Assembly: GCA_030272155.1 (NCBI GenBank)
Contig: CP126197.1
Location: forward strand, 1,674,001-1,738,000
Origin: Tetradesmus obliquus
Lineage: Eukaryota; Chlorophyta; Chlorophyceae; Sphaeropleales; Scenedesmaceae
DNA: 64,000 bases
Direction: 5' to 3'
The stretch's first letter is position 1; each line of letters starts with the position of its first letter. Under the pieces are notes generated by a model. That model searched no databases and had not been told where the DNA came from. It saw only the letters and a list, made by a program, of their open reading frames with translations. Shown here piece after piece: positions 1 to 64,000 of this stretch. The position numbers and the translations under genes are program-made.

Positions 1-281
1 GTCTGTGTTCAAGGGTTTAAACGTGAAAGCAGGTCAATCATTGCAAGCATAATGCAGCATAATGAGCACTCACATCTCTACAGCTTGACATCTAGCTAAA
101 GTAGCTATATGCTTGAGCCGTTGACCAGGTGGCAGCCAGCAAGCAAGCACTTAGAGGTCAGCAGCGGTCTCTGTGGTTTGAACTTTAACATGAAACAGGC
201 TCCGGCTCCTATCAGCTATCAGTTGCCACTGCCGCCGCTGCTGCTGCTGCTGCTGACGATACCGTATGTGACACAGCCCAA
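1..281. other. 3' flank of the DUF4470-MYND gene
   Basis: Probable 3' untranslated region and intergenic DNA. The first 55 bases resemble 41156-41200, suggesting a dispersed repeat. Small ORFs here are shadows of CTG tracts. Confidence 0.4.
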
Positions 282-3200
282 CTACGTGCTGCTGCAGGCG
301 CGCTTGTGCCGCGGCCAGTCTGCCCGCTGGCACTGCACACAGCAGTACCTGTCAGCATCGCTCCTGCAGCGGCTGCAGCGCAGCAGCTGCTGCACCACGG
401 CACCACCCGCACCCCTGCTGCCTGGCTTGGCCCCACACACTCTGCAGGCACCACCAGCACCTGCCTCCGCTGCCGCTGCTGCTGCCACTTGGGGTCTTGC
501 ACCTGCAGCAGACCGCCCAGCCGCTGCTGCTGCTTCTGCTGCAGCAGCACGCACTGCACCAGCATCAGCTCGGCTCACTGGCCTGCTGCTGCCCCCGCTG
601 CCAGCGCCAGCTGCTGCGCCGGCTGCTGCCATTGCGGCCTTCTTGAAACTATCAGGTATTGCATCCATGAGTGTAGCCGAGTCACCCAGCAGCTCCGGGT
701 ACACAGGGCAGATGAAACTGGCCAGCCAGTGGCTGTTGGGGCCCAGGGGCAGGTGCTTGACCTGCCATGATGTGGGCTGCATGCGGCGTGCGTTGCGCTG
801 TAGGAGAGAGCGCAGCAGCTGCAGCTCGTGGGTGGAGCAGAAGGTGGTGGATGAGGCACCCTGGGCAGCAGCAGCAGCAGCAGCAGCAGCGGCGGTGGCG
901 GTTGCAGGAACCGGATCAGTGGATGGTCAGACAGATGTGGCATGGGATGGCAAGTGACTGCTGACGCCGGCAGCAGGCAACACGGCAGCACCGCACTGAA
1001 GGAAGCTGCAGCAGCAACACATGAGGTGCTTGCGCTGCCACGGTGTGGGTTGCATGCGGCGTGTGTTGCTCTGTAACAGAGCTCGCAGCAGCTGCAGGCT
1101 GCAGCTCACGGGTTGAGCAGAAGGTGGTGGATGAGGCGCCCTGCGGGCAGCAGCAGCAGCAGGTTGAGTATTGTGCATTCAAAACATAGAGTTGTGCATT
1201 CAGTGTGATGCATGCAGTTAGTGGCTGCTAGCAGACGGTGGTGGGCGAGCAGCCCTGGGACAGCAGCAGCAGCAGCAGCAGCAGGAAAGCAGCAAGCCTG
1301 TGAGCTAGCACTCCTGCCGATGTCACCAGCTGTTTGTGTGCCCTTCCCACACTTCAGGGCATCCTGCATCTTGCATCCATACAAAAACACTTGGCCGACC
1401 ACGCTGCGCTGTGTGAGAGGTGACTCTTGGCCGCATACAAACGCAAGCTTGGCAGCCACGTCTGACACTTGAACGACAGCCACGTATCACCACATTATGC
1501 ATGTCACGCTGCCACACACCTGTGCCATGATGACCTCCTTGAAGCGTCCCAGCTCCTTGTTCATATCTATCTTGCCCTGCTGCAGCAGCGCCATGCCCTG
1601 CTCATTGTCAACCACACTCAGCACAGCCAGCGGGCGGTTGGTGGAGGTCAGCCGCCGCAGCGGTGTGTGCACGCGAATGTACATGGCATGAGCCTTGTCG
1701 CTGCCTTGTGGCGCGTCCTTGTTGATGATCTACGGCGGCGGCAGCAGCAGCAGTAGCAGCAGTAGCAGCAGTTGAGCAAGCAGACGATCAACCGGCAAAG
1801 CAGCAAGGGAGAGTGTGCGCCTTGTTGCTGCCTTGCGGGGCGTTCCACTTCAAGTTCAAGTTCAAGTTTGGCAGAAGCAGCAGTAGCAGCTTTCACACAT
1901 CTAATTAAGCAAGCGGCAAACCGGTGTGTGCACAAGGATGTACATGGCAAGAGCCCTGTCGCTGTCTTGCAGTGCGACCTTATTGATGATCTAGCGAGTA
2001 AGCAGTATGCGAGTGCAGCAGTTCAGCAGGGGGTGGTTTAGCAGGAGAAATAGCAGCACGGCAGGGTGGAAGAAGATCACAACATTGGAGGTGCTTGTGT
2101 TTCACCCAGTGTGCTGCCCAGCAGCAGGGCTTGCTCTGACCTGGTGAATGAGCAGGTGGTCTTTAGTGCACATTCTCTTCAACTACTTTGCTGCAAAGCA
2201 TGGCAGCTGCTGCCGTTACTTACTTGGTGGATGAGCAGGTTGTCTTTAATGGCCCGCACAAAGATGATCTTGATGGTCTCCCTCAAGTCCCGGAAGGGGT
2301 CACCCAGCTCCAGGTTGCCATCACGCATCTGCACAAGTGTTTGTTAAGACAACACCGACACAATTACAACTCATGGAACATAGCAAATGACAAGGGTTCA
2401 CGCCGCAGCAAGTGCAGCAACTTACCAGCAGTACAGGGCATGCGGCACGCCGTGCCTTATTGTGTCGGTGTTGAGGTCCAGTACCCTCAACGCAGTGGCA
2501 AGCTAAAAAACTCGTCTCAGGCTGTTGTGCGGATGGTCAAGCATCTCACTCCCACCTGCTCCACCATCTCAGCGTGGTCAAACATCTCACTCATCCACAG
2601 CGGCCACTGCTCATTCGACAGAGGCAGCGCCTCCAGCTGCCTCTCCACATCCAGCTGCCTGATCAGCCCACCACCCGCTGCAGGCACGACACGATACAAA
2701 GTATTCAACGCATGCATGGTCAGTGCGGCAGTGTCTGTGCAATCGGTGCAGCAAACACATCCGTCGTAGTTGTTCAACACCCGTGGGTGCAGATGCATGG
2801 CTTGCAAGAGCAGTATGTGACTGCGACTTGGCTGACCTCCTGAGTTCAGTAGGGGCACAGCAAACAGCTGCATTTTGAGGCGCATAGCCATGCTTGTAAG
2901 CGGCCGCACCTGTGCTGCTGGCCAGGTCGCAGGGCCAGTCTGGGTCTGCTGACTTGGGCAGCCGGGCAGTGATGGTGCGGCTGCCTTTGGATAGCGTGTA
3001 CTCTGCGGGTTGCAATTCAGAAACAAGCAGTGTAAGCAAGAGCGCATGCAGTCACCAGCCCCAGACACTACAGACAAGCTAGGCCGGTGGGGATGATTGC
3101 GGTTGCTGGTTCGGCCTACGCTGGTGTCCATTCTCAACAGCGCAAGCCAGCTGGATATACCGCGGACAGTCCCAAGCAGTTCCGGCTGCAAGGTACTATG

Positions 3201-3615
3201 GCCGCTGCCTCAAAACCGATAGTGTTCACCGCCACAGACAAACACTCTCACGCAGGCCCATACAGGAATCCCGACAGCAACTCATGCCTGATTTGCAGCC
3301 ACTTGAGAGCTTGTACCGGACGTTCAACTGCTATCCAAGTGTGCAACACCTGTCCAGCTATGCTATTTGCAATGATCACCCACTTGCTGATGAGCTGTCC
3401 ACAGGGTGCAGCAGCCGCAGCTTAAACCCTCCCAGCCCTGCAGGTTTAGCCAGGGTAAACCCTAGCTCGTGCGTCACGTGCCCTGCAGCCGCATTCATCA
3501 CTGCAGGCAGCACAGCCAAGCCAGAGCAGGGCTCACTGCCACTGGCTTTCAGAGTGGCTGTATATGCCACTGCATCTTCTTGCAGCTGCAGCAGCTGCAG
3601 CCCTGGCGCCTCCTG

Positions 3616-3655
<40 letters not shown>

Positions 3656-4658
3656 AAGGGGCTTGCATCTAGGATGAGCCCACGGCTGTTCAAAAGAGGT
3701 GTTGCTGTGAACTCTGCCAGGCGCTGCGGCATGCAGTGCCAGACGCCCAGCTGCTGCAGCAGGCCTACTGTTGTTGTGGCTGGGTCGAAGCCGTGGTCGG
3801 CTGGCAGCAGGAAGGACACCTGGATACAGCGGGAAGGGCCAAGACGCATTTGAAAGATGTGCAGTTGGTGATCAAAAGAATTCAAGGCTTGAAAATGCGT
3901 GTTGGTACATGGGGATGGTGGGGGAGTGGTGGGAGACCTTGCCGCCGTGGCAATCGGCTGTAGGCCATACAGGCTGCGATGCCGCTTTGTTTGCCGATAA
4001 CACAAACAGATGTCTTGGTTTGGGGTTGTGTCAGCACCTGTTTTGGAATCTTGAATGCGACTGCATCAATTTGCAGGTACACAATCATGACGCAGACCCC
4101 AGCTCCCTTACCTGCATCGGCAACCTGTCTGGTGCCCTTGCATCCACTGCCACTGCAATGCTGTCTATCACAGCCACTCCAGGTCCCACATCCTTCCCAC
4201 TCTTCAGTGCAGCATCAACAGCAGCAGCCACACCTATCGCTGCTGCCACCCCTGCATGTGTCGTGCCTGCCATCATCTGCTGCAGCTGCAGCAGCATGCT
4301 GCTCACATCGCTGCTGCTGCTGCTGCTGCCACGCTGCAGCCTTGCTACAGCAGCGTCTGTCAGCAGCACCAGGCGCAGGAATGGAGTGCTTGTGATTATA
4401 GTGCAGGCAGCACTTGGGATTACGCTGCCTGAATACAGCAGCGGCGGTTCGGCACAACCACTCAGCTGCTGTGCAGGTAATTCAGCTGCGCTGCTGCTGC
4501 TGCTGCTACTGCCACCTGATGCGTTGATGTTGCTGCTCTCTGCTGCTGCTGCTGGCAGTTCTCGCAGCAGCCACTGCCAGGCTGCTTGCCAAGCTGTCTG
4601 GAACTGAGGCTGCAGCTGCCAGTGCTGCGGCAGCTGCTGCAGCAGCTGCACTACACTG

Positions 4659-4697
<39 letters not shown>

Positions 4698-6921
4698 GTG
4701 TCACTCCCTGCCGCGCCTGCTGCTGCTGTTGCTTTGCTGTCACCCAGCTGCAGCTGCACTCTGCTTGCCAGTCCAGCCACCAGCCTTGCTAGTGTTGCAG
4801 GAGTGTGCAGCAGCAGGCCGCTCCTATCCTCTGCATACTTGCCAGCTGCACTGGCACAGCAGAGCTCCTGCAGCCGCAGCAGCGCATCAGACAAGCCGCA
4901 TGCTCCTGGCTTTGGAGGCAGCAGCAGCTGCGGCAATGCCAGGCCTGCATCCTCACATGCTTCTGCAACTGCTGCATTGCCACCCACTGCATTGCCACTG
5001 TTGGAAGAGGCTGTAGCTGCTGCCTTGCTCTTGCCAGAGCCAGCAGCAGCAGCAACGCTGGGTACCGCCGGTGCGAACTCCAGCTGCCGCGTGTTACTCG
5101 CCCGCGTTGCTATCCTATCATGCAAGCTGTAAGGCTCCATCTTGCCAAACCGCGTCTCTGTAACAAGCCGCAGCCCCAGCAGAGCCGGCAGCAGCGCAGG
5201 GGGCCCTCCCAGCACTGTTGTGAGGTAGGCGGTGATGCTGTTTGCTCCGCTGCTGTTCCACGTCATTGCATCTGCTGTGAGGCGGCTGCTGGGGTGGGGA
5301 GCCAGGCGGAGACCTGCCGCCAGCAGCACATTCAGCAGCCCTGCAGGACATGGAATCAACGCAGATCAGGTGTCAGGGAACACATCATGCCACATGCATC
5401 TGCTGTGAGGCGGCTGCTGGGGTGGGGAGCCAGGCGGGGACCCGCTGCCAGCAGCACATTCAGCAGACATGCAGGACATGAAAATGAGACAAATCAGGTG
5501 TCAGGGAACACATCGCACCACATGCATCTGCTGTGAGGCGGCTGCTGGGGTGCGGAACAAGGCGAGGGCCTGCCGCCAGCACATTTGGCAGGCCTTTGGG
5601 GTGCATAGAATTGCGAATATACACATCGGGTTGGTTATCGCAGCGGCGTCAGCGCTGGCAGCACATTTAGCACGCCTGCAGGGCGCGAAGCAGCCCATAT
5701 GCACTGCATTGGTGGCATGTGAGCTAGTGAGAGGCCTGTACAGGCGCCTCTGGCACAAACACAAGCCAACATCTGTTTGTTGCCATACATCAATAACCTG
5801 CCACCCACCACTTTGGCAGTTGTATAGATTTATAAACTTGACTTACCTGCATGATCGCCGACATGGGACACGTCAATGGCATGGAAGCGCAGGCTGTCTC
5901 CCAAGCTGCTGCCGGGCACCACATGGGTGGAATGGAAGTCAATGATTGGCCTGTACAGTTCCCCAGCTCACATGTGTTTCTCCATACATCAACAACCTGA
6001 CATCGACTTCTTTGGCAGTTCTAAAAGACACCACTCACCTGCATGGTCACCAACATTGGACACGTCAATGGCATGGAAGCGCAGCCCATCCCCCAAGCTG
6101 CTGCCGGGCCCACACAGCTCCACAGCATCCAGACAGCACAAACACAGCACTTTTGCTGAGTTGATGAGGCGGACAGGCCCCTCTGCTACAACTCATGCCA
6201 GCTTGTGCTGTCCCAGAATCACCAGCCTCCCGCACACCGAATTGCATCTCCCAACAAATGAACATACCAGCGAAGCTCACCTGCATGGTCACCTACGTTT
6301 GACACGTCAATGGCACTGTGGCACAGTCCATCGTCCCGCTGGTACACACAAAATGCAAGCACCAGTAACCCACCACACACGGCCTGGAGGTCTCAAAACC
6401 ACCAGTCACCTGCATGGTCACCAACATTGGATACGTCAATGGCATGGAAGCGCAGGTTATCAACACTCTTCACACACTGGACGCACCTCCCAACAAATGA
6501 ATATACTAGAAAAAAACCCCACCTGCATGGTCGCCCACATTGGACACATCAATGGCATGGAAGCGCAGGCCATCACCCAAGCTGCCGCCAGGCCCACACG
6601 GTTCCACAGCATCCAGATAGCACAAACACAGCACACTTTTGCAGAAATAATGAGACGGACAGGCCCTTCTGCTACAACTCATGCCAGCCACCTTCCCCAC
6701 ACTGACCAGCATCCCAACAGTTTAATATCCTACTTAAACTCACCTGCATGGTCACCAACATTGGACACGTCAATGGCATGGAAGCGCAGGCTGTCCCCCA
6801 AGCTGCTGCCAGGCCCACACAGCTCCAAGCCATCCCCACCATGCAGCACAAACACCACCCCTCCGCTGCTGCTGCTGCTGCTGCTGCTGGCGTGAGCTGT
6901 ACTACTGCCTGCAGCTCCTGA

Positions 6922-6960
<39 letters not shown>

Positions 6961-9057
6961 ATGTTGGTATGCAGCCACCATGTCTCTCAAGCAGGCTTGT
7001 GCTGCGCGTGTCAGCAGCCCTGGCTGCTGCTGCTGGCTCGACTTGCTGCCTGTCTGTCTGGCCGCCCCGCTGCGCAGCAGCTGTTTGTGGCTGAACTGCG
7101 GGAAGCAGTCCCAGGGCCGCGTCGCATCATGCACCTGGAAGGAAAGAGCAGCAGTTTTTTTGCAATGCATGCAAGTCAGGCAAGGGCCGGGTTGCATCAT
7201 GCACCTGGAAGAAAAGAGCCGCAGCAGTTTGCAATGCATGCAAGTCAGGCAAAGGCCGGGTTGCGTCATGCACCTGAAGCAAACAGACCATCACCGCATC
7301 ATGTTCAGCGCAATGCAGCCAAGTGCTGCAGTTGCATGTGCATCAGCAGCCAAGCATTGTATAGATTCCTTTCTCAATAAAGTAGCTGTTAAAAATAAGA
7401 ATAATCGTAAGAAAAAAAAGACTGCTCTTTAGAACTCGAGCTCATAAAATTTTTTATGACTTTTTTGCTACGTCCTTTTGGTCCGTGACTTGGCAGCAGG
7501 CCTGGCTGCATGCACTTGTGAGCCAACTGCAGCACATGCTTGCTGCACAAACATGATGACAACACCATGATGATGCTTGCTGCTCAACATGCTGTTTGAG
7601 GCTGCTGTGTGTTTACAGCAACGCCGCGGTAGCGTTGCTCTGCAGCAGCTGCTGCTGTGTGGTATGGGTACTCACCCTCCAGCCGCACTGAGCATCGAGC
7701 AGTGTGGGGTTTACTGCGGGGCCCTGGCAGCTGCTGCCGTCTGCACAGATGCTGCCATGCAGGAAGTATGTCTGCAGCAGCGGCAAACAGCATTCACCAT
7801 GCAGCAGCACGCAGCACGCAGCACACGGCAGCAGAGCAGACAGCGTTAGCACCGTATGACGTACAAGACCACAATAAGGCTGTCATCGATTTGCAGGTGA
7901 GTTGGTGCGATGCCTAGTTAGCTGCTGGTACATACTGCTATATCAAACACATGTTCGTGTAACTTTGTTCTTACATGTGTAAGCACACCGCAAGGTCCTA
8001 AGACAGCATTTAGCCTTGCACACCACCCATGGCTCCATTGCTGTGTCTATTTAACAATGTCAATAGCGGCCATCGTAACAACCCCTGCAGACACACATCC
8101 AACTCCTTGCACAGCATTTTCTGTGCTGCTGCTGGCAGCAGCCTGCTGTCAACCAGCAGCCCATCCAGCTGGCTGTCCAGGCTGGCGATGCCCGCTGACT
8201 CAGCAAAGGCATTGAAAGCATGCAGCCCAGCACACCTGTATGGCACTGCTGCCATGGCTAGATGGCATTGTTGCTGACACTGCATGGCTTGAACAGTAAC
8301 ATGATGATGGATGTCAATCACAGCCAAAGGAAAAAACCCAAAAGCCCACCTCCAGCTCCTTGCACAGCATTTTCTGTGTGACTGGTGGCAGCAGGCTGCT
8401 GTCCACCACTAACCCATCCAGCTGGCTGTCCATGCTGGCAATGCCCGCTGACTCAGCAAAGCCTTGTAAAGCATGCAGCCCAGCACACCTGTACGGCACC
8501 GCTGCCATGCCCAGATAACAAGGTTCCAACACTCTGTGGCTTGAACAGTAACACGATGATGATGGAAGTGAACCACAGCCAATGCAAGAAGCCCTGCAAA
8601 CCCACCTCCAGCTCCTTGCACAGCAACTTCTGTGTTGCTGCTGGCAGCAGCCTGCTGTCAACCACTAACCCATCCAGCTGGCTGTCCAAGCTGGCAATGC
8701 CCGCTGACTCAGCAAAGCTGCGCTGCTTTGACTGACTGTCAAAAGCTCGCAGCCGCCGGTTGATGGCAGTCTGCATGAACAACTCACTGCAGCAGCAGCA
8801 GCAGCAGCAGCGGCAGCAGCAGCAAACATAAGGAATTTGATAATAAATTTTAAACAGGGCATGGGGTTCAGTACAAGGTGGACTTCGCGGCAGGCGTTGG
8901 TCATAGGTTGCAAGACATCACATTCAAAGAACCCATTATCTGCAGACCCTATGATCCACTGTGCTTCACCCACCGCTCGGCTGCGAGTGATTTTGGGGTT
9001 TTGTCACAGCGCAGCCAGCTGCGCCACACAGCACACAGCTTGCTCCGCACGCCTCCA

Positions 9058-9101
<44 letters not shown>

Positions 9102-9969
9102 GCTGCTGCTGGAACTGCTCCCAAAGCGGATACAGTCTGGCAGTTGGTCGTCAATCGCCTGCAGCAATGCACAACCGATGTCACCAACTAAATGCTTGCA
9201 TCAGGTGTACGCTGCTGTTTGCCTTGTGATGACGCAAGATGCCCCAACAGGAACCCTGTGCAGGCGCATTGCATGCTGTGCAAGCTTACTGCATGGGGCT
9301 CGGTTCAGCCACTGGCCGCCTCTTTGTTATCCTCTTGACCCACCTTTTGCAGCAGTAGGTCCAGCCTCTGCTTGTGCTCAGCTGAAAGTTGAGCACAGAA
9401 CCACAGGGACCACAGAAAATTGACATCATCTGCTTTTTCAGGGTCCATTTCTGCTGCAGCTGCCAGCAGCAGCGCATTTCTCGCCAGTACAGCATCTGAC
9501 ACGTCATTCAAATGCAGCTGACAGCTGCAGCGGGCGCCGGCGTTGACCAGAGCCGCTGCTGTGGTCAATGCATTGCGTATGTCGCCGCAGCCTAGTAGAA
9601 GCACCTACAGTTGTCAGGAGGCCACAAATGGCGGTCAGTCAGAGCAGCGCGTGCAGGCCGGCTTGCCAGTGCTGCTGCTGCTGGACATTGCTGCAGGAGT
9701 CCATTGGAGGCAAAACTCGTTTTATTCATTTGTATAAGGCCACAAGAAGTGCTGCAGCAGCGCAGTACATACGGTCTGGCGTGCAGTTTGTTGGCCAGCT
9801 CTTATCTGTGATGTGCTATCTGTGCTGTGCTATCTGTGCCCACCTTGCAGTCTGCTGGGGCATTGTCTCCTGCAGGCAGCACGGCTATAGCAGGCGTGTT
9901 ACCAATGGGGTATTGAAAGCCCCATCGATGGTAGAGGACCTTTCTAGATGTGACAGCAGGGAACGCCAT
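282..9969 (-). CDS. DUF4470 domain protein with C-terminal MYND zinc finger
   Basis: Multi-exon gene read from 9969 down to a stop at 282. Phase-consistent exons: 9844-9969 (MAFPAVTSRK..., with YPIGNTPAIAVL), 9344-9604 (LLLGCGDIRNALTT and LARNALLLAAAAE), 8974-9158 (Ser-rich), 8606-8786, 6744-7134 (ends RFHAIDVSNVGDHAG), 4112-5340 (starts GLLNVLLAAGLRLAP), 3384-3819, 2910-3002, 2556-2800, 2426-2502. Later pieces: about 2221-2322, 1520-1729, a short exon near 1390-1470, and 282-866. Motifs of the first exons match the DUF4470 domain found N-terminal to MYND fingers in fungi and algae. The last exon ends in a MYND finger: CRVC, then CSRC, then CCVQCQRADWPRHKRAC. MYND fingers usually bind proteins; the substrate here is unknown. 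Two joins are unresolved: 2426 to the next exon would create TGA, and the 1.4 kb exon frame is unclear. Introns carry about 15 exon echoes. Family call good, exact model moderate. Confidence 0.75.
1021..2195 (-). repeat. Exon-edge echoes in 3' part of the DUF4470-MYND gene
   Basis: 1021-1146 repeats the acceptor side of the MYND exon (the SSTTFCST...ELQ part) with a frameshift. About 1815-1850 and 1935-1990 repeat the acceptor side of the 1520-1729 exon. 2128-2195 repeats the donor side of the exon near 2221-2322. All are diverged, and each lies on the side predicted by the part it copies. Confidence 0.7.
5395..6610 (-). repeat. Two opposed exon-echo ladders inside one DUF4470 intron
   Basis: This intron separates exon 6744-7134 from exon 4112-5340. 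About 5395-5475 and 5525-5600 copy the acceptor side of the downstream exon (LLNVLLAAG...). About 5850-5930, 6035-6115, 6285-6330, 6405-6455 and 6520-6610 copy the donor side of the upstream exon (RFHAIDVSNVGDHAG plus GT donor). Copies differ by scattered substitutions and small indels, which argues against assembly duplication. Confidence 0.8.
7185..7285 (-). repeat. Two echoes of the acceptor side of exon 6744-7134
   Basis: The acceptor plus VHDATRPW-coding start at 7134 recurs near 7200 and 7268, upstream in transcription direction. Each copy keeps CAG followed by GTGCATGATGC or a close variant. Confidence 0.7.
7371..7485. other. AT-rich patch inside a DUF4470 gene intron
   Basis: An A/T-rich stretch with AATAAA, a run of eight A and T-rich runs stands out from GC-rich surroundings. 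No gene is seen. It may be a decayed insertion or a tail left by retroposition. Confidence 0.35.
8089..8522 (-). repeat. Two long echoes of exon 8606-8786
   Basis: About 8089-8270 and 8345-8522 repeat the exon's 3' half (AESAGIAS-DSQLDGL, then KELE or KELD), the GTG donor and some following intron, so the repeat unit is about 180 bp. Both lie downstream in transcription direction. Reading frames are mostly open. Confidence 0.8.
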
Positions 9970-10374
9970 CAGCGCTGCTGGGCTGTGCAGATCTAGTTGC
10001 TGCAAAGGATGCACGCCATGGAAGCAGCTGGCATGTGCAAACGCTGATATAGGGAAACAGATCGAACAGGGATTTGGCGTGCACAGGCAAAGCCACACCC
10101 ACACCCCGGAACTCAGTTTGAAGCAGCGGAATACGAAACAGCAACCATAATATGACAGTGACACCCTGAGGCAGCTTCAGTTCCCCAAGTCGTTGTTTGC
10201 TTTACATTTACGACCGTTTTGCAAAGTTGCGCTGGGACGCCAGACGGAAGGTGTGGTCTTGCCAGCCCTGTCCGAAGTAGCTGCTTGTGTGAGCAGTCGA
10301 TCAGACACCTTACATCCAACCTCTTATCCCTGCCTCGTCGCTGTGCACTGTGACTCTTGTCTGCGTTCTTGCGA
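9970..10374. promoter_or_regulatory. Candidate bidirectional promoter
   Basis: About 400 bp separate the divergent starts of the DUF4470-MYND gene (minus) and the RAP protein gene (plus). No TATA box or named element was recognised, and 5' untranslated exons may lie here. The call rests on gene orientation only. Confidence 0.4.
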
Positions 10375-10781: not shown

Positions 10782-10824
<43 letters not shown>

Positions 10825-12502: not shown

Positions 12503-13733
12503 GGCATGTGTTGCTGAGTCAACAGCAGCTTGATGACTTGCTTGCAGCCCTGCTGGATTCCACAGCACATGACCAGCCTTACATCAACAACGCCAGGCCG
12601 CAGTCTGTTTCTAACAGCCTGTGGGCAGCAGCAAAGCTGGGCCTTGCTGTTGATCAGCCGCAGCTGCTGAAGCTGCTGCAGCTGTTTGTGCAGCTGCTGG
12701 ACAGCGTCGACGGAGGAACACAGCAGGAGGCTGCCAATGTGCTGTGGGCGCTGGCAACCCTGCAACAGCAGCAGCAGCAGCAGCAGCAGTGGCAGCAGCA
12801 GCACGTTCGCTGCCCGCAGCGGCAGCTAGTGTCGTTAGATGCTGTTATACCAATTTGGGATGCCTTTGGTAGTCAGCTGCAGCTAGCCAATAGCCAGGAG
12901 GTGTCCAATGTTGTGTGGGCTGCAGCACGCCTCGGGCTGCTACCCACACCCCAGCAGCTGCGGCTGATGATCAGCCACCTAACAAACCTGCTGCCAGCTG
13001 TAGCAAACCAGGAGATTGTAGCCGCACTATGGGCTGTAGCAGCAATCCAGCAGCTAGCCCCGCAGCAGCAGCAGCGGCTGCGGCTGCCGCCGCAGCAGCT
13101 GCAGGCACTGCTGCAGGCGCTTGCACCCAGCCCGGCTGCAGCAGCGGAGCTGCCACTGGTGCAGCTGTGTGGCTGCCTTTCAGCTGTGGCTCAAATGGTG
13201 CCGTGTGTCTTGCCGCAGCAGCTGCTGGGGCCAGAAGGGCGTGCATTGCTGCTGCAGCGAGTGCCAAGCTTGAGCCTGCAGGCTACTGCTGCAGTGGCGT
13301 ATGCGCTTGCACAGCTAGGGGTGGTAGAGGCTGCAGAGCTGATGGGTGCATTGCTGCAGCGGGGGCTGCAGCTGACACAGCAGCAGCAGCAGCAGGAGCA
13401 GCAGCAGCAGCAGGAGCAGCAAAGAGGGCCGGGCCGCAGCAGCAGGAGCAGCACCACCAGCCACGCACACAGCAGCAGCTTCAGTAGTGCAGCTGGCGAT
13501 GATGGCAGTGTAGAGCAGCAGCAGCAGCAGCAGCAGCTACAGCCAGTGCTGGACCATGTCTTTGCACATCAGGCATTGGCAACATTGTGTTGGTCGGGTG
13601 CGGTGCTGGACCTGCAGCAGCAGGTGCCGCTGCTGCGGCAGCTTGCGGCTGCTTATGCGCAGCGCTGGCAGCAGGCCAGCAGCGTGGACATGTGCCAGGT
13701 GTTCATGCTGCACCTGTGGCTGCAGGACGTGGA

Positions 13734-19768: not shown

Positions 19769-19814
<46 letters not shown>

Positions 19815-22377: not shown

Positions 22378-22465
22378 GCAGCGGTTGCGCCAATGTGACA
22401 TTCGAACCATCAGCAGCAGGGACAGCAGCAGCCGCCGCTGCAGCAACAACAGCAGCAGCAGCAGC

Positions 22466-30380: not shown

Positions 30381-30424
<44 letters not shown>

Positions 30425-30951: not shown

Positions 30952-31009
<58 letters not shown>

Positions 31010-31986: not shown

Positions 31987-32030
<44 letters not shown>

Positions 32031-41690: not shown

Positions 41691-44523
<2,833 letters not shown>

Positions 44524-54700: not shown

Positions 54701-57700
54701 CTGTCAAAATTTGGAAATGCTGGTTAAATTTGAATCGTTTAAATAATAACAGAACATCTGACGCTGCTGGCGAGATGGCCTTCTTCACTGAGACGCCTTG
54801 CATGGAGGTGAGGGTGGTGCAGCTGTCAGCAATTCTAAGGATTTGCTGCTGAGTTGTCACATAACAACATAACAGTAGGAATGACATCTCCATGTGTATG
54901 GGTGCTTTGGCTCTTGGACCGCAGGTGGGGCAGTGGTACGATGCCCTGAGCATCACACAATGTGCTTTGGAACATTATTCTGCTGTCTCCGCCACCTGCA
55001 TGATTGCTGTGCTGTCAACAGCCACCAGGCAAAAAACGCAACATATGGCGGCCGACATTCTGCACTTGCCCACCTGCTGCTGCGCTGTTACGTGCCGTCG
55101 CTGCCCCCAACCGCAGTCTGTGCGCACCACAGGGATGTGCCGTGTGCTGGTCATCACCCGGGCGCTGTACCAAGCGCTGGCGGCCGACTTTGCATCGAGC
55201 ACACGGGCAGTGTTGGACAACTTGCTGGCACGTGCAGAGCAGGTGAGAGGCATGCAGTGCTGCGCTGTGCTTGCGCAGGACCGATAATAGGGGTGGGTTT
55301 GAGTTTGTTATCTCTGCAGGCCTCCTGCTGTCCAAAATCCGCAGGTGCTGTGTCAATCAGTGACTCCCTTGGTTCATGCGGCAAGGGAGGTGTGCTTTGG
55401 TCTGCTGAAAACACTGTGTTGAGAGCAATGGTTCTTTCTGCTGCAGATGATTGAGGCGGAGTTTCCAGGCTGCTCTGCTGCTACCATCACTTCTCAGCTA
55501 GACAGCCTGTCAGCACAGCAGCAGCAGCAGCAGCAGCGAGGCGCGTCACCAGCAGAAGGTGAAGGCCTGCTGCACAGCAATGCAGCCAGCACCATGGCAC
55601 CAGAAGCGTGGGCAGCCGTCACACCAGCAGCAGCAGTAGCAGCAGCAGCAGCAGGTCGAGGCCCAACAGCAGCAGCAGCAGTGCCGCTGCCGCCAGTAGA
55701 CCCCTGGAGGCTGCCGCTGCGCAATGAGCAGCAGCGGGTGGTGCTTTTGAATCTGTTGAGGGTGCGGGCGCTGGTGCAAGGCACGTTGGCGCGGCTGGAG
55801 CAGCAGCAGACACACGAGTTTTTGAATGCGTGCTCGGCCGGCAACATCGACCTCATACGCACGGTGAGCTTGAGACGATGCATGTGAAAGGGCAGTTGCA
55901 TCTGCTGGTCCTCTGTGGTGCTGCTGCTGCCACTACTGCTGCGGCACGCTAGCCGATTAGGGTCGCCCTGTGCGTCCTGCACGATGTGCATCTAGTTGAA
56001 ACAGTTGACGACAACGCTGCAGACACATGAAAACTTCCACTGCCACAATGTACCGTGCTTATCACTGCTGATGCTGCGCCAGGGGTTTGACGGAAACTGC
56101 TGCACTTATGACCACCGCATTGAGCTCATGCTGGCTGCCAGCAAGGGCCACGGGCTAGCGGTGTCAATTTCTCTCGCCAATCGAGACTCTGCAAATCAGC
56201 CAATTATCTCCACCTGCAGTCCGCTGCGCATACAACGACACCTAACTGCTGCACATTACGTGCACATTCTTGACCTCACTGCAGATGCTGCGCCAGGGGC
56301 GTGACGTAAACTGCTGCGATTATGGAGGCCAATTAGGCCTTATGCTTACCGCCGCCGATGCATGCAGCTTATGCCCTGCTGCTGCTGGCTCTGCATATTC
56401 TTTGCGCTGCAGATGCTGAGGCAAGACCGTGATGTAAACTGCTGCGACTATGACGGCCGCACCGGGCTGATGCTGGCTGCCAGCAAAGGACACGGGCTGG
56501 CAGTGAGCCTGCTGCTCCGCCTATGGCGGCTCCACAGGGAATCATGCTGACTGGTGGGCTCACACATTGCTCTCTTGACCGCACTGCAGATGCTGCGCCA
56601 GGGACGCGACGTCAACTACTGCGACTATGATGGCCCCACTGGGCTGATGCTCGCGGCCAGCAAGGGCCACAGGCTGGCGTGTGTGCTCTTCCATTGCTGT
56701 TTGACTTGCACTGCAGATGCTGCGGCAAGGCCGTGATGTGAACTGCTGTGATTATGACGGCCGCACTGGGCTGATGCTTGCTGCCAGCAAGGGCCACGGG
56801 CTGGCGGTGAGCCTGCTGCTGCGCAGCGGAGCAGCCCCAAATGCAGCAGACCTGGCCGGCAGCAGTGCACTGCTGGAGGCTGCACGGGGCGGTCACGACG
56901 AGACACTGCAGTGAGTGTTATTTTGTTATTTACAAATGCTACAACAAGTGTGAAAGGCGTTTGAGATGCAGCAGACCTGGCGGGCAGCAATGCACTGCTG
57001 GAGGCCTGCGCTGCCTCCAGCGCGGGGGGGGCGGGGGGGGGGGGGGGGGCATGCCGAAACGCTGCAGTGAGTGGTGATCGTAAATTAAGCACTTGTCATT
57101 TAAGAACTCAGCCTCACGGCATTCATGTCATACGCGTGCATGGTATGCTGCCTGCTGTTGATGTAGCAAGCTGTAGCATTAAACGGCGTCCTAGGCCAGT
57201 ACCAGGCAACTGCGTTGTTTGCACATGTTGAGGCTTGCCCAGCCGCTGCATGATGCTGGTGCTTTCACAGATTTCTCTTATGTGTAATAACAAGCACCTG
57301 CTGCTGGCTTTATGCAGGCTGCTGCTGCGTGCTGGCGCGCGCCTGCAGATGAGTGAGGTACGCCAGGCAGCGCTGCTGTGCTCTGCTGTATCAGAAGGCG
57401 ACCTGCAACTGCTGCGGCGGCTGCTGGCGGCTGGCGCCAACCCCAACGCAGGAGACTACGACAAGCGGCGGCCGCTGCACATTGCGGCAGCAGACGGCAA
57501 CTTGCCTGCGGTGAGGGCGATGGAACGCAATACCATCTGTGGTAGTGGTGGTGGGGCCAGTGTGCACTGAAACACTGACTTGTTCAGCAACAGTTGTGTC
57601 CATGTGTCGACAGAAGGCCATGTTGTGACGACCGGGGCCTGGCGGTTTCCGGCACTATTATGATGTTGTGTTGCTGCTGCCCTACTCACACGGCACACTC

Positions 57701-59320
57701 TTCATACGCAACACTTCATCTGCAACCCTGTCAGTGTAACATGTTCTGTAACACGTTGCTGTGCAGGTGCGACTGCTGGTGGAGGTGGGCGCTGCCGACC
57801 CCTCCCTGGTGGACTGCTGACATGGCACACTCTTTATGCAAAACACTTGATCTATAAACTGTTGGTCTAACATGTTGTATGCATGTGTGGAAAACACGTG
57901 GATGTGCAGGTGCGTCTGCTGGTTGAGGCGGGTGCTGCTGACCCTTCCCTGATGGACCGGTGGCCTGGCACACTTTTTGCAAAACACTTGATCTGTTACC
58001 CTGATTTTGTGACATGTTACATATGTTTTAACACGTTGCTGTGCAGGTGCGTCTGCTGGTTGAGGTGGGTGCTGCTGACCCCTCCCTGGTGGACCGCTGG
58101 CAGCAGACGCCCCTGCAGGAGGCATCCCGCAGCGGGGCAGCTCCCTTGGTCAGCTATTTAACAGGCAAAACGCCAGCAGTAGGTGCGTGTATCAGCTGCT
58201 TTCTGCAGGTTGTTGTGTTGTGGCTTATGCAGTCTTCACAGGGTGCCAGGAGCCACATGTTACGACCTTGCGGAGTGTGTGGGTTTGTGGGTGGGTGGGT
58301 ATATGGGTGGGTGGGTATATGGGTGTGCAAGGATTGTTACCTGGTTATGAAGCACATTGTCACGACTGTAGTGTCAGGCGACAGGTCAGTGCCTGCAGTC
58401 TCTTCTTGTGCAACCCAGCTATATATAGCAGGCAGCCTCTTCCTGCAATACGCTTGCGCCAGTGGCGTGTGCCCTGTCACTTCTTCTTCCTTGCTGGTTG
58501 GCTCATCGGCCACATATGTGTCCCCTGTCCCCTTCGCCTGCCTGCCTGCCTGCCTGCCATCTTCAGCAGCCGTCACACCGCCACCACCACCTGCAGCAGC
58601 AGCAGCAGTGCCGCTAGCTGCTGAACCCATCAAGCCCCAGAAGCAGCAGCAGCTGCCGGAGCTGCAGGCCTGGGCTGGCCCTGACAGCCTGGCGGCACTG
58701 GCGCAGCTGGGCAGCCAGGGGAGGCTGGCAGCAGTGGCGCAGCTGCTAGAGCAGCAGCTCAGCCTGGTGAGTGCAGTCGTTCAACTTTACAAGCGCAGGA
58801 GCTCTGCTGGAGAGTATGCTGTGTGTGTTGGCAGCCTCGCAACGCACCAATCACAGGGCTAGGATCTGCTTGGTGTGTCCGTGGAGTCACAATCACAGGC
58901 AGCCTGTGTATTGCTTGCAAACATGATGGTGTAGTGCTCCCTTCTGTTGCCGCTCCATTGGGGCGCGAGGCCGATGGCGTTGATGCTATGGCTTGATGGG
59001 TAACATGATGATGATGAGGCAGCCTGCACCGCAGCAGCCAACACGCCACATGCAGCCGCACGGCACATGCTGTTTTGCTGTGCTCAGTAACACAGTGTCA
59101 GTTTGTACTTGTCATGCCACCTTTTTTAACAGTCAACTGCCAGGATCCCTGTGTGCACTCAGCGCAGGCTGCTGCAGCAACTGGGACCAGCAATAGACAC
59201 ACCCGCCTTGTTTTATGTTTTCACAGCGCTAGCAGCACGAGCCAGAGTCAGCTGTGCTGTCCTCTGCCTCGTTTGCTGCTGCAGGTACGGCTGCTGGTGG
59301 AGGAGGGTGGTGCAGCTGGC

Positions 59321-59355
<35 letters not shown>

Positions 59356-59389
59356 TGGTGCATCACCAGGAGCTGTGGCACTGAGCTGA
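48077..59389 (+). CDS. Shaker/AKT-type voltage-gated K+ channel with CNBD and ankyrin repeats
   Basis: Twenty exons in agreeing phase: 48077-48514, 48808-48899, 49201-49296, 50022-50155, 50632-50666, 50960-51033, 51515-51638, 52351-52478, 52638-52683, 52916-53051, 53323-53485, 53780-53900, 54365-54685, 55117-55242, 55447-55863, 56717-56910, 57318-57510, 58047-58182, 58570-58766 and 59285-59389, giving about 1091 residues. S1 is WSFIIVTVVVTLFVEPY; S2 DTLFALASFLVFAADLGLNF; S3 VTTIPFDWIVLGALGL; S4 LLRLLRLGRAYRL with spaced Arg. The pore reads WSIITFSTV then GYGDLHA (390-396), the K+-selective filter. A CNBD spans about 490-678 (GEMAFLTETPCMES, VRTTGMCRVL), lacking the Arg of true cAMP pockets, as in plant channels. 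Ankyrin repeats lie at about 818-1000. It conducts K+ across a membrane, most likely the plasma membrane. The start ATG is tentative. Over 20 exon echoes fill the introns. Confidence 0.93.
49000..50325 (+). repeat. Exon echoes around channel exons 2-4
   Basis: 49000-49045 copies the exon 2 end (WVVHP-SDIR). 49468-49530 copies the exon 3 end (VEPYNLAFSEYPG-like). 49775-49840 copies the exon 4 start (LGAPDTLLPLAS). 50250-50325 copies the exon 4 end (HDTHGD-VTD). Each lies on the predicted side. Confidence 0.8.
50171..50222. repeat. 20-bp tandem repeat with telobox-like core
   Basis: About 2.7 copies of CTGAGGGTAGGGTTTACAAC lie just inside channel intron 4. The TAGGGTTT core equals the plant telobox (AAACCCTA on the other strand), probably by chance. 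Confidence 0.7.
51413..51460 (+). repeat. Acceptor-side echo of channel exon 7
   Basis: It copies ATGCAG and GTATGTGAGCCTGCTG (YVSLL-LLRLGRA), about 100 bp upstream of the real acceptor at 51514, but reaches a stop straight after. The acceptor is intact, so missplicing would truncate the channel at S4. Confidence 0.85.
51716..51879 (+). other. Two candidate 39-nt cassette exons (echoes of exon 7 end)
   Basis: 51716-51754 (VSLLVLTLSRNFA) and 51841-51879 (FSLLLLTLSLNFA) copy the S5-coding end of exon 7. Each has a TTTAG or CTCTAG acceptor, a GTGAG donor, 39 nt length and phase 0 on both sides with no stop. CAG-repeat intron sequence lies after each donor, so the repeated unit is exon end plus donor plus (CAG)n. 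Confidence 0.55.
52096..52290 (+). repeat. Two acceptor-side echoes of channel exon 8
   Basis: 52096-52165 and 52212-52288 copy the start of exon 8 (LCFFTVHWGACG-F), each ending in a TGA that the real exon at 52351 lacks. The second keeps a CTGCAG acceptor. Confidence 0.85.
53110..54812 (+). repeat. Donor-side echoes of channel exons 10-13
   Basis: 53110-53200 copies the exon 10 end (GTSVLLVA). 53558-53615 copies the exon 11 end (ETS-E-V--VYPATLRR). 54004-54045 and 54115-54155 copy the exon 12 end (ATAKV-LYMPK). 54762-54812 copies the exon 13 end (GEMAF-TETPCMEV). All lie downstream of the real exon. Confidence 0.85.
56040..56690 (+). repeat. Four acceptor-side echoes of the ankyrin exon
   Basis: Copies of the MLRQGRDVNCCDYDGRTGLM-coding start occur at about 56070, 56290, 56413 and 56590, ahead of the real exon at 56717. 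The first has lost its AG acceptor and the others keep CTGCAG. The 56413-56502 copy is open for 30 codons and ends at a GTGAGC donor in phase 0. Confidence 0.85.
56962..57070 (+). repeat. Donor-side echo of ankyrin exon 16 with a poly-G run
   Basis: It copies the AADLAGS-ALLEA end and GCAGTGAGTG donor of exon 16 and contains an interrupted poly-G tract at about 57024-57049, a likely source of sequencing error. Confidence 0.8.
57764..57965 (+). repeat. Two acceptor-side echoes of channel exon 18
   Basis: 57767-57820 and 57909-57960 copy GTGCAG plus VRLLVE-GAADPSL. The first ends in a stop and the second runs on without a clear donor. The real exon starts at 58047. Confidence 0.85.
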
Positions 59390-62300
59390 GGAAGCTGCCC
59401 TTGCTGGCATGCCAGGGATGTCGCTGTACAGCACATCTGGCGGTCACCTCTCCAAAAACCGTGGTTGGGTGTTTCGACTGACGTAGACGTAGACGCAGTG
59501 CGGGCAGTGTTCTGACTTGATGTTTAAGGCCGACAGGGTTTGGCAGCAGCAGAGAGCATCACAGCCAGTCGCTGCCTGCATGACGTTGATTGTTCATTGG
59601 CCTGAGCTTTTGTCTTAAACTTTAGAATTTCATCCCTCATGAGCTCTCGGTCCAATGCCAGTTGACAACTCAACTCTGCTTGCGTGCAGTGGCTGCATGC
59701 AGCGCACACAGAGACATATGCTTGAACATATGCTCAGAGAATACTTTTCAGTGGAGAAGAACATCGGCTTTACAGCAACTGCGTCAGCAGCATCAATGCA
59801 CGTTGGTTGCACGTGGAAGTTGTGTATGTCTTGCTTTCGTTGCCTCATCTTGGCAGCCCCTTCTTTCCCTCTAGTACCTGAGCAGCAGCAGTGCTGTGCT
59901 GTTGGCAACCTTCTTTCCCGTAGCATCTTCTTTCTACCTAGGAACTCTGTGGTGTTTCAATCAACCAATGTACAAGCTGTCGTGATGTGATATGTGTCTA
60001 GATGGTTTGTTGGGCAGGGTCTTCGGGTTGCAGTTGTGCAGTTTGGCCTAGCCCTGTGTTGTGCCAAATTTTTCAACCAGCGAGGACAGAACGTGCTGTG
60101 CCAGTTGCAGCATGATGCTCGGGTGCATATGCACCGCAGCTAGTAGGTTGATGTGCATCAGCTTCACTTGTGATGGCGAACCAATGCCCAGCACACTGCA
60201 TACGCTTGTTTGTGACCAGCAGCTGACAATAAGTATCTTGGTGCAGCGTGGTGCTGCAGGCGCTGCGTGACATGCCGTGGTCCTCCCTTTGTTGAATGCC
60301 ATGCATCCACCATATGGTCAGAGGTCAGCTCACGCGACTCAAGCTGCTGGATGACGCAATCAGCCGCCTGCAGCGCTCCTGATTTGTGTTTGCAGCAGCC
60401 GCCGTCGCTTTGAAAGCCACTGCCGACGGTGTTGATGCTTACATGGGTTGACGTACAAGATAGGCGCTTGCCCCACCAAAGCATGACAAAATGCACATCC
60501 ATGCATGCACAAGCTGCAGAACTAGCACAGCAGGAGCCAATCGGACAAAGGAGCTGAACGGTTACGTCAGGGTTGTGCACACATGTGCCACATACAGTGT
60601 ATGCATGCTACTGCCGTCGAGCGACTGATGATGGAGGTGCAGACGATAACAATGTTAACAATTACTTGATCCGTCACACTGTGTGCGATGGCAACACATC
60701 CGAGCTTGGTCTCAGTTGCTGCATATATGCCCGATGCTGCATCAAACAAGAGAGAGAACGAGCATGCGCAGGGACAGATGTGCTGTCATCAGCCGCCAAC
60801 ACTCTGGAATGCATTATCCAGGCTCTGCAGGCAAGCACGCAATTGCAAGACAGGCTGAAACACCTCCTGGTGATAGTACATTACATTGCAATGACTGTTG
60901 GAACTGGTCCTGACCCCATGCACTTGCCCAGCGAGCTGCTGCTTTGCTCATGCGGTGGCTCCCATGTGGTTGCATTACATTACATTACATTACATTACAT
61001 TACATGCTCCACTCAACGAGGAGTGGGAACCCCAGTCAGGAGCCAACGAGAGGCTCATAGGGGGTTGCACTCGAGTGGAGCCATCCCCATTTGGGCGCGT
61101 AGCCAGCAGTGTGGCGATGCACATTGTACACACAGGTAACCTCGCCCATAGGAGGCAATGACAGGCTCAATGGGCAAAGAGAAAGCAAGACCTGGACACA
61201 GCAATATTTGTGAGAGGATAGTTACAGGTGGGTCCTGGCACCATCTTGGATGGTATGAGCCACAACAGGTTGAACACAGGTCTGAGACCACAAAAGGAGA
61301 GTGTGCACCGTACAGCAATGACCATTGGTCCTTTCCGAAAATCCAGCTGCCAAATCTGTTCGTGGACATCAACTGCATCGCACATGGAATCGCAAGCGGC
61401 TCCTGGCGGCGTCCATCCATGTACACGTCGTGCAACAGCACCTGCCAGTGGGTTGCTTGGTTCACCCAGCAGGCGATGACATGATCACTTTTATGAGACA
61501 GTCACCTGCTTTGGTGGCTGCTTTTGTGCACTGTTGCCATCTGATGCGGTGTCACCCGGACCAGCTGGGTATGGTACAAACGTAGCATCTGCATTTTGCA
61601 ACAAATCAACACAGCTTGCAAGCAGACAGCCATGCTGGCATAGCAACCTGCTGTATGTGGCAGGCACAGTAAGGCACAGCTGCCAGTGCTGCTGCTTTGG
61701 TTTGCTTGCATCCCAACTGCACAGCAGGGCCCCCACCTGCCAGCAGCAGCAGCTTCAAACTGCTAGTAATTTTGAGCTCCAGAATTCGCCTTGATCACAC
61801 AAGAAGGATGTTTGCAGGAAACTGTGTAGAATACTAGTCCTCAACAAACTCTGTGCAGCCACACTAGCTGCACGCGCGCAGCAGCTGCCGGTGGGCCTGA
61901 AGCGGTGTTGCGCAGTATGTCACAGATATGACAGTTGAAACTGTATGTGCAGCGCACAGCGCCAAGCAGCAGAGCGCAACAGCAGCGGCAGGGCACTTGG
62001 CACACCAGAACTGCAGTGCCTGATCAGCCAGCAAGGGAAGCCCAGAAGTATTACATTACACATCAAAACATGTTGCAGGCAGCAGCACCCACAGCAACAC
62101 TCTACAGCGCAAGTTAACATATGTAACAGTCGAGTCGGGGCACTTCAGGGCAACGTGTTTTTAGCTCTTTTCTTGCAGTACACTGTGCCACTGCTAACAG
62201 CTCAAATTGATTTAGGTTCGTCGTTGAAAGCTTGACATTTATATGTAGGCCACTTGTTCGCTACGTTTGTACCATGCCCAGCTGAGACCGGTCAAACTCC

Positions 62301-62392: not shown

Positions 62393-63270
62393 ATGCCTGC
62401 AGGGGGGCTGTCCATGGTGCGCAAGCACCCTTCAGGATGGAAGAGCAACCGCAGCACCACGGCCATGAGGGTGGCGGCGGTGGTGTGTGTGATAATGGCT
62501 TTGACCACAGCTGACGAAAAGTTTACGCCCGCATATTATTACAGAGAGCAGTACCCTGACTACGCCAAGGAGGTACACGGGGACCTGAACCGGTTCTGCA
62601 AACTTCATCACAAGAACTTCACAGCAAACGGCACAGTGGCTACACCCAAGCATGGCGGCAGGCCCTCAAATGTCCCACATGCTGTCGCCTTCCATGCCAG
62701 CACAATATTCAAGGCTGGCAAGGTGGTAAAGGCCTACCCATCGGCAGATTCAAAGAGAAAGGTTGATGTGCACGTGTGGTGGACTTCAATCGAAGTCGCA
62801 TGTCAGGAAAATGACACACTGCGCCAGCTGTGCACTGACTACAACATCACACCCAAGAGACTGCTGAAGTACATGAAATGGGCTGACCCCGACCTGGTGC
62901 GCAGGAGAATAGATGTGAAGCTGGACTTGACAAAGATACAGAAACAAAGGCGAAAGGCAGCAGCTGCGGCGCTGTGGCAGAAGTACCAAAGTGACCCCGA
63001 CATGCTGCAGCGCATATATTTCGTTGATGAGTGCAAATTCTGGATGTCAGACCTGGCAGGCGGCTCCGTCAAGGTCTATTGTGATGCACACGATGAAAAC
63101 GTGCATGCTGTGCTGCCATGCAAATGGATGCGCAAGGGCAAGGACGCAGAGCCGGTCAAGTTGCACTTTGTCTGCGCCGTCAACGCTGTGCACGGGCCCG
63201 TCTACTGCAAGTTTGTCACCGGCACAACAGACAACAAGGACCATGCTGGCAACCTCAATGTACCGTACAT
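62393..63270 (+). mobile_element. Tc1/mariner-like DDE transposase fragment
   Basis: ORF from ATG 62393, open to a consensus donor (ATG then GTGAGTG) at 63270, about 293 residues. It has a basic N-terminus with a GRPS motif, a middle part that could be a helix-turn-helix (YNITPKRLLKYMKWADPDLV) and a charged helix (KIQKQRRKAAAAALWQKYQS). RIYFVDECKFWMSDLAGGSV then resembles the strand with the first catalytic Asp of Tc1/mariner-family DDE domains. The later catalytic Asp residues are not in this exon, and no continuation was found before the converging ORF, so this copy may be truncated or continue past the window. A CAG at 62402 suggests the exon may instead start there with upstream exons missing. 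Family call by pattern only. Confidence 0.5.
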
Positions 63271-63285
63271 GGTGAGTGTGCGCTG

Positions 63286-63993
63286 CTACTGCGCAGGCGC
63301 CTGCCATCGAAAGACATGCCAGCCCTGCTGTACTGTGTAGTAACAGTCCCGCAGTGCTTTTTTTAGTGCTGTAGTGAAGCTGCAGCGCTGCCCGTCCTCT
63401 GCTGTGAACATAACAGCAGAGTAACTTGGTGACAGTACAATGACACCACCTGCAGCAGCAAGCTGGAAACCAATGTGCAAGGATTGGTGCATGTCACATC
63501 CGCGCGTGCTCACGCGCAGCACACTGCCCCCTGGCTGCAGCCAGTTGTCATATGCTGCAGCGCAGAACTCAAAGTCGCGCTCCAGCACCTGCTGCCTGCT
63601 GCTGCTGTAATAACCCTTGTCATGACATGAGCCATCAGCTTGAATCAGCATGTTGTGCTGTGCATGGAGGAAATTAATCCGCCCATCCCACCAGTCCACT
63701 GCTACCTGAGCACACATACTGCTGCTGATGCCTAACCAATACAGCATGCACACCAGCTGCTCCTCGCTTGTGTGCATGTAGCCCATGCATGTGCCAACCA
63801 TATCAGCCAGCACACATGCACACATCTTGCACTGAAGCGCTGCTGCTGTGGCGACTGCACGCGGCGCGCAGAACTTGAAGTGCTGCACACCTGGCAAGCA
63901 GCCAGTCAAGCCCCAGAACAATCTCTGCCCCCTCATAGACTTGGTGATGTATCTGACCTTGTCTGCACTGAGCCTGATGTAGAAGCGTCCCAT
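63286..63993 (-). CDS. Unknown protein, possible PD-(D/E)XK nuclease-like domain, partial
   Basis: ORF of 235 codons ending at 63286; ATG at 63993 is 7 bases from the window edge, so the true start may lie outside. It has many Cys and aromatic residues, unlike the CAG-driven low complexity elsewhere, and reads as real protein. The segment HNMLIQADGSCHDKG, then a basic/acidic helix (QQVLERDFEFCAAAYDNW), then GGSVLRVSTRG follows the order seen in Vsr-like and RAP-like restriction folds (DG-x-x-H, then Asp/Glu, then L-R-V/I). This is a pattern reading and could be chance. It converges on the transposase-like ORF with 15 bp between, suggesting both belong to one mobile element. Confidence 0.45.
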   Translation of the reverse strand: MGRFYIRLSADKVRYITKSMRGQRLFWGLTGCLPGVQHFKFCAPRAVATAAALQCKMCACVLADMVGTCMGYMHTSEEQLVCMLYWLGISSSMCAQVAVDWWDGRINFLHAQHNMLIQADGSCHDKGYYSSSRQQVLERDFEFCAAAYDNWLQPGGSVLRVSTRGCDMHQSLHIGFQLAAAGGVIVLSPSYSAVMFTAEDGQRCSFTTALKKALRDCYYTVQQGWHVFRWQAPAQ

Positions 63994-64000
63994 CGCATCC

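Follow-up and report, generated by a model that had tools for sequence, protein, structure and literature searches.

Do the introns of Tetradesmus obliquus hold copies of the exon ends that adjoin them, and how would such copies have arisen? The question was raised by a 64-kb stretch of the T. obliquus assembly (C7:1674001-1738000), referred to here as the window, in which a sequence-only reading had noted partial copies of exon edges in the introns of intron-rich genes. We analysed the window, two of its genes with verified exons, namely purF (amidophosphoribosyltransferase) and an ankyrin K+ channel gene, and random loci of the assembly (104.66 Mb, 17 contigs). A partial copy of an exon end sitting in the adjoining intron is termed an echo. 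Our analysis confirmed that these intron echoes of adjoining exon ends are real and that they extend beyond the window.

Exon-end copies in two verified genes

Self-alignment, the check that the sequence-only reading had named, was run by BLAST on the window with simple repeats masked. It revealed 79 repeat pairs, of which 76 were direct, all with an offset of at most 0.9 kb. The other three pairs are two self-palindromes (13059-13117 and 18083-18197) and the sole distant inverted pair in the window (36092-36176 and 61207-61290; 85 bp, 80% identity).

The verified exon set was obtained by spliced alignment of database proteins, P0001 for purF and P0121 for the channel. The channel alignment has 19 pieces; the unreliable first one was dropped, leaving 18 exons used, and exons further upstream lie outside its coverage. 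Each exon was searched against its gene on the plus strand (E <= 1e-3) for targets within 1 kb and outside exons, so that copies within exons are outside the scope of the search. Two channel exons rich in triplets, 13 and 18, are omitted from the count; their matches are of low complexity and run both ways.

This search detected 31 echoes in introns, 13 in purF and 18 in the channel gene, comprising 13 donor-side edges, 16 acceptor-side edges and two internal fragments; whole-exon copies were absent among them (0/31). At least one echo was found at 19 of the 60 junctions. All 29 edge echoes lie in the adjacent intron, with 5' edges upstream and 3' edges downstream of the exon, and the splice dinucleotide is kept in 26 of them (GT 12/13, AG 14/16). 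Echo-to-exon offsets are mostly 90-300 bp, and five of the 29 are divisible by three. Searching both strands (E <= 0.01) yielded two short, weak inverted matches of exon 14 of the channel, along with a few exon-exon matches at a distance; the inverted matches in these genes were low-complexity or weak and short only.

Echoes in random genome loci

A purpose-built small gene finder, trained on 264 kb, provided 349 ab initio exons from 20 random 10-kb stretches (200 kb) and from the window minus the purF and channel genes; the random-loci statistics and the codon-position tests depend on this set. Among the 267 repeat pairs of the 20 stretches, 258 were direct, 227 of these within 1 kb. The number of pairs per stretch ranged from 0 (two stretches) to 44. 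A satellite-like array occupies 2519-10000 of one stretch, L005 on C6; its period is about 447 bp, and copies shifted against each other are 99.98% identical.

The 349 exons gave 293 local matches before filtering: 3' edges were found 91 times downstream and 26 times upstream, 5' edges 54 times upstream and 12 times downstream, internal fragments 54 times in direct and six times in inverted orientation, and whole exons 50 times. We then dropped matches covering at least 70% of the query exon or landing on a larger predicted exon. The 150 remaining matches are 3' edges (69 downstream, 8 upstream), 5' edges (43 upstream, 2 downstream) and 28 internal fragments, none of them inverted (0/150). Polarity had been claimed without exception. 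It holds in 29 of 29 cases in the verified genes, but meets 10 exceptions among the 122 filtered ab initio edge copies; the 112 others lie on the expected side.

Distinct whole-exon matches in the random loci number 44, with both splice dinucleotides in 15 of them (clearest: L008, 9262-9327). The gene finder repeatedly called echoes exons, and many of these 44 matches are such miscalled echoes; some may be real whole-exon copies.

Random placement of units of the observed sizes in the verified genes predicts about 30-32% one-edge units (at least 20 bp of exon), 49-53% intron-only units and 10-12% whole-exon or exon-internal units. Across all loci except L005, an exon was contained in 101 of 114 repeat clusters, compared with 78.8 after random shifts. 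Short-period arrays aside, each verified gene region has one exon-free cluster: a 19-bp minisatellite of 12 copies in a purF intron (30601-30828) and a repeat pair at 48859-49044. Intron-only repeats are thus rarer than chance would give, partly since a pair of unconstrained copies drifts apart faster than does an unconstrained copy from an exon under constraint. Some echo spacers consist mostly of triplet arrays (for example L004, 5690-5890), and triplet tracts may help to start duplications.

Homology at the junction and codon pattern

Junction, splice-site and codon statistics were taken from the 112 polarity-conform filtered ab initio echoes (69 donor, 43 acceptor). In donor echoes, identity with the exon was 0.91 over the last ten exon bases, 0.77 over the six donor bases and 0.36-0.44 beyond. 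Acceptor echoes gave the mirror image, and the verified-gene echoes (13 donor, 16 acceptor) a profile of the same shape. Homology on the intron side was clear in 20, weak in 16 and not detected in 76 of the 112 echoes; at 93% exon identity or more (40 echoes) it was clear in 11, weak in four and not detected in 25. Splice dinucleotides were intact in most echoes (GT 60/69, AG 38/43), including 38 GT and 26 AG echoes with altered neighbouring sequence.

Differences at codon positions 1/2/3 numbered 2/5/33 at an identity of at least 95%, 38/25/141 at 90-95%, 38/31/72 at 85-90%, 63/56/119 at 78-85% and 6/1/10 at 60-78% (two echoes). In the most similar class, 31 of 39 changed codons were silent, and 28 of the 32 echoes without differences at position 1 or 2 differed at position 3. 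We considered hypermutability of CpG as a source of this bias and rejected it: with CpG transitions excluded the bias is weaker but persists, the silent share being 16/23 (at least 95%), 79/141 (90-95%) and 109/255, that is 0.43, below 90%. The neutral expectation is also about 0.43, from a random silent share of 0.27-0.28 counted once each for echo and exon. Young and old echoes differ in silent share (Fisher p = 0.003, calculated on non-independent matches). In the verified genes, comparison of exon with echo gave 109 silent and 62 replacement changes and two stop codons; echo against echo was also silent-rich (66 silent, 54 replacement, one stop). Of 26 gap events in the 112 echoes, 23 shift the frame, and six stop codons occur.

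Old echoes thus fit neutral decay and young ones do not. The young ones resemble pieces of a different functional version of the exon, not of the adjacent exon. Homology that ends at the junction, lasting splice sites and the silent excess of young echoes are not predicted by plain duplication. Junction-ending homology and silent excess, which the sequence-only reading did not contain, are more informative than polarity.

Echoes along purF and the channel gene

The purF gene (25582-33064, minus strand, as are all its echoes) has 14 exons and a single locus in the genome; its protein shares 99% identity with a UniRef entry for Tetradesmus obliquus. Two echoes of the 3' edge of exon 7 differ from the exon by three (29755-29832) and by six (29512-29589) changes, all silent; across the three copies there are six differing sites, all silent, whereas of the spacer pairs one cannot be aligned and the second shows about 70% identity. 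Exon 8 has a 5' edge echo (29254-29293) and a 3' edge echo (28831-28886), the latter with one stop codon and the donor GTAAGT, as compared with GTGCGG in the exon. They are followed by a 5' edge echo of exon 9 (28536-28587) and by a 3' edge echo (27976-28021) and an internal fragment (27885-27912) of exon 10. Exon 11 is echoed four times, twice by its 5' edge (27754-27818 and 27601-27673) and twice by its 3' edge (27063-27146, with intron homology in a 223-bp unit, and 26837-26925). Further 5' edge echoes belong to exon 12 (26592-26612, short and weak) and exon 13 (26108-26196, with intron homology in a 135-bp unit).

The channel gene (49201-59386, plus strand throughout; PF00520) is numbered here by the 18 exons used. 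Its first echoes are of the 3' edge of exon 1 (49469-49516) and the 5' edge of exon 2 (49780-49828). Exon 5 has one 5' edge echo (51419-51460) and two 3' edge echoes (51717-51754 and 51842-51879). Exon 6 has two 5' edge echoes, the first of which has lost its acceptor (52097-52160, GG; 52218-52281), and the 3' edge echo of exon 8 has lost its donor (53113-53195). One 3' edge echo of exon 10 is identical to the exon in 38 of 38 bases and has an unrelated intron flank (54006-54043); a second lies at 54118-54150. The 3' edge echo of exon 11 (54759-54807) encodes MAFFTETPCME, where the exon has MAFLTETPCME, and the echo's version is also found in two other database entries. Exon 14 has four 5' edge echoes (56071-56163, acceptor lost, TG; 56285-56353; 56413-56520; 56590-56679) and an internal fragment (56966-57005); its local echoes are 90, 86, 81 and 78% identical to it. 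Two 5' edge echoes of exon 16 follow (57767-57822 and 57910-57964). The repeat pair at 48859-49044 (plus strand), upstream of the exons used, carries ab initio exons on both copies and is probably an echo of an upstream channel exon.

Exon 11 of the channel also contains, as found by Tandem Repeats Finder, an in-frame 33-bp tandem repeat of 2.2 copies (54533-54605), of a kind that selection would allow.

Origin of the echoes

The one-sided placement follows from geometry alone. When a tandem duplication runs from an intron into the interior of an exon, only the last copy runs on into the rest of the exon, and a spare 5' edge is left upstream; in the mirror case, from the exon interior into the intron, a spare 3' edge is left downstream. 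Duplication across one junction therefore forces the polarity, and no directed mechanism is needed. Repeated local duplication, which the sequence-only reading had drawn from the polarity, is supported by the direct orientation, the short distances and the tandem arrays of similar period, but polarity gives no support to a special mechanism. Duplication of whole exons with later truncation was rejected because it would also leave 5' edges downstream, where the verified genes have none (0/29).

Our best explanation, to which we give about an even chance of being right, is that local duplications cross a splice junction and are filtered by selection, exon and echo often coming from diverged versions of the gene, that is, from haplotypes. 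Such duplications would be frequent, one of their breakpoints falling within the exon and the second in the intron next to it. Splicing would conceal the spare exon edge, so that the duplication is tolerated; whole-exon and exon-internal duplications would usually harm the protein and be selected out. Some echoes would later be multiplied as tandem units. Three parts of this account are inferred: the filtering by selection, the origin from haplotypes and the route of repair.

Exon and echo could come to represent two diverged gene versions by two routes. Either the other haplotype would serve as template of the duplication, with homologous copying from one break end followed by end joining, or an ordinary tandem duplication would be followed by recombination or conversion that replaces the exon with that of another haplotype. 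Initially the echo would have silent, allele-like differences, a working splice site of its own and, in many cases, an intron flank that cannot be aligned; afterwards it would decay neutrally. Neither route is strongly favoured, since the prediction that the bias would occur only in echoes without intron homology failed. At purF exon 7 and at channel exon 14, a single edge has at least three versions that have diverged silently, which implies more than one event or lineage.

A phased, telomere-to-telomere assembly of the diploid genome of S. obliquus UTEX 3031 was reportedly presented by Biondi et al. (2024). The strain is described in a research paper (PMC12636532) as diploid and extensively heterozygous; the patterns might reflect hybridization, and gene-body methylation is extensive. 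Assembly sizes are 208 Mb for strain DOE0152z and about 109 Mb for UTEX 393 (PMC5552973).

Gene families show how fast introns lose alignability here. In LHCB-type paralogues (L024-L031 and L033; C14, C5, C8), exon segments are 76-94% identical and introns mostly unalignable; the shared segments mostly stop near predicted exon edges, and a few extend 30-60 bases further. Diverged haplotypes would give such pairs. Two kinase-like genes in inverted arrangement (L022/L023; C11:4523000-4527500 and C11:4530300-4534800), along which identity is graded, have one predicted exon at 97.4% identity next to an intron at 44%; being inverted and graded, the pair was set aside as a gauge of intron versus exon divergence and is suggestive at most.

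Paralogues were also considered as the source of the echoes. A genome search with purF exon 7 matched its own locus only, in three places; purF is single-copy, and a paralogous source is ruled out for it. Channel exon 14 has two further matches 12 kb apart (C12:5092652-5092844, 77%, and C12:5105073-5105158, 85%), which might be paralogues and may or may not carry echoes themselves; given these two matches, a paralogue might have supplied the decayed channel echoes.

Several points weigh against our best explanation. Regression of differences at position 3 on those at positions 1 and 2 gave a slope of 0.13 (95% -0.03 to 0.32) and an intercept of 3.3% of sites. The slope lies far below the neutral slope of about 0.9; being too low for the neutral model, it implies that the intercept is probably raised by noise and is an unclean measure of divergence at birth. 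At 90% identity or more, the silent bias was equal with clear intron homology (48/21/1) and without it (77/38/0), so that the attempt to separate same-chromosome from haplotype-templated echoes by intron homology found no difference. Finally, the genome-wide figures rest on ab initio exons and filters, and the matches are not mutually independent.

A stronger form of the haplotype idea is doubtful, though we entertain it: introns of this diploid alga might act as an archive of other alleles, breaks in introns whose divergence prevents pairing being repaired by copying from the other haplotype, across the border of the next exon in either direction, followed by end joining. Each event would then leave a fragment of that haplotype's exon edge next to the functional exon. 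If this were true, stacked echoes would record several past versions of a gene.

Plain tandem duplication across splice junctions on the same chromosome, followed by neutral decay and without any role for haplotypes, is rather unlikely in our estimate, although it would account for the arrays of similar period, for the clear intron-side homology of 20 of the 112 echoes, for the neutrality of old echoes and, by geometry, for polarity. It leaves unexplained why 25 of 40 echoes at 93% exon identity or more lack intron-side homology, why young echoes show a silent excess, and why the purF exon 7 copies differ at six silent sites only while their spacers are unalignable or about 70% identical.

Copying directed to exon edges, for instance in the repair of breaks associated with splice sites, nascent RNA or splicing intermediates, would end at the junction by design. 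This would match the fact that most echoes lose homology no more than about ten bases from the junction, and also the excess of repeat clusters containing an exon (101/114 versus 78.8). We nevertheless consider it improbable: inner echo ends vary and share no common motif by eye, some units include intron, echo donors can differ from the donor of the exon, and the silent bias is left unexplained. Polarity, as a sign of a directed mechanism, had already been discarded on geometrical grounds.

That the echoes function as alternative or decoy splice sites or exon ends under selection is very improbable, despite mostly intact splice sites and silent-rich young echoes. Old echoes are neutral (silent share 109/255 below 90% identity), 23 of 26 gaps shift the frame, six stop codons occur, only 5 of 29 offsets are multiples of three, and the inner ends show no consistent splice sites by eye. 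For the last reason, the idea that an echo serves as an alternative exon end spliced to the body of the exon was rejected too. Stops, frameshifts, offsets and the neutrality of old echoes argue, at the level of sequence, that the echoes are inert.

An assembly artefact, in which fragments of the other haplotype were wrongly inserted, would suit the allele-like young echoes and the heterozygosity of the species (PMC12636532, in its available part) but is highly improbable in view of more than two silent-diverged versions per edge at exon 7 of purF and at exon 14 of the channel, arrays with shared spacers, the continuous range of decay among echoes, an assembly that probably belongs to the phased telomere-to-telomere genome above, and, suggestively, a UniRef T. 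obliquus model (P0123) that starts ...GQLATAKVELYMPK and not with the exon's ...DALLATAKVELYMPK, as if its start lay within an echo.

Relation to known systems

Exon duplication, as in mutually exclusive exons, gives local exon copies with splice sites. Echoes differ in being partial, one-edged and mostly decaying, with candidate whole-exon copies in the random loci. In coupled homologous and non-homologous break repair, sequence is copied from a homologue and the end is then joined; such repair would yield the geometry of echoes, a likeness that we draw by analogy. As described in the available part of PMC3443670, intron gain by tandem genomic duplication (the AGGT model) likewise involves tandem duplication of exonic sequence with splice motifs and removal of the spare copy by splicing. 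There, a duplication within an exon creates a new intron, whereas here an existing junction is crossed and an existing intron lengthened. Introners, according to the available part of PMC9860276, likewise change intron content by inserted sequence, with rapid turnover, but form dispersed families of similar introns, whereas echoes match the neighbouring exon only. No dispersed intron family was found: the repeats of the window are local, purF exon 7 matches its own locus alone, and the genome-wide search of introns, limited to one 541-bp stretch, gave a single match.

Among the titles and abstract openings of the best-matching papers, subscription papers being outside our reach, neither a description of this pattern nor a genome with so many echo-bearing splice junctions was found. 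The words intron and exon are absent from the available parts of two genome papers (PMC12571836 and PMC7590803); in that of a third (PMC7955037), intron is absent and exon occurs only inside exonuclease. Two genome announcements (PMC5552973 and PMC5255914) do not mention the echo pattern. The ingredients, tandem duplication and partial exon copies, are known; what appears to be new, judged by the papers listed, is their abundance at splice junctions (19/60 in the two verified genes).

Rough extrapolation from 264 kb suggests tens of thousands of echoes genome-wide. Pairs of echo and exon could be used to measure the growth of introns and the filtering of duplications by splicing, and to ask whether recombination between diverged haplotypes is imprecise. 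For annotators they call for caution, as echoes can pass for exons in gene finding.

Other genes and repeats of the window

Local direct repeat clusters, which we regard as putative echoes, were found in three further gene regions: that of a DUF4470 gene (5267-8718, minus strand, with ab initio exons), a region earlier called M11 protease (18494-22622, plus strand) and a UPF0029 (IMPACT-family) gene (42301-43540, minus strand). Pfam supports DUF4470 and UPF0029 among the names given earlier, but the M11 model has no Pfam match and MYND was not seen; a protein search for the MYND-type gene found none among 7988 scored candidates at E <= 1e-40. The intronless gene had been said to lack echoes, which fits the absence of direct local repeat pairs between about 8.7 and 18.5 kb.

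A perfect tetranucleotide array, (GGCA)76.5, spans 306 bp (43781-44086), and CAG/CTG triplet arrays are abundant in both introns and exons of the window. At 62393-63424 there is a mostly single-exon prediction with no Pfam match, which we take to be transposase-like in appearance.

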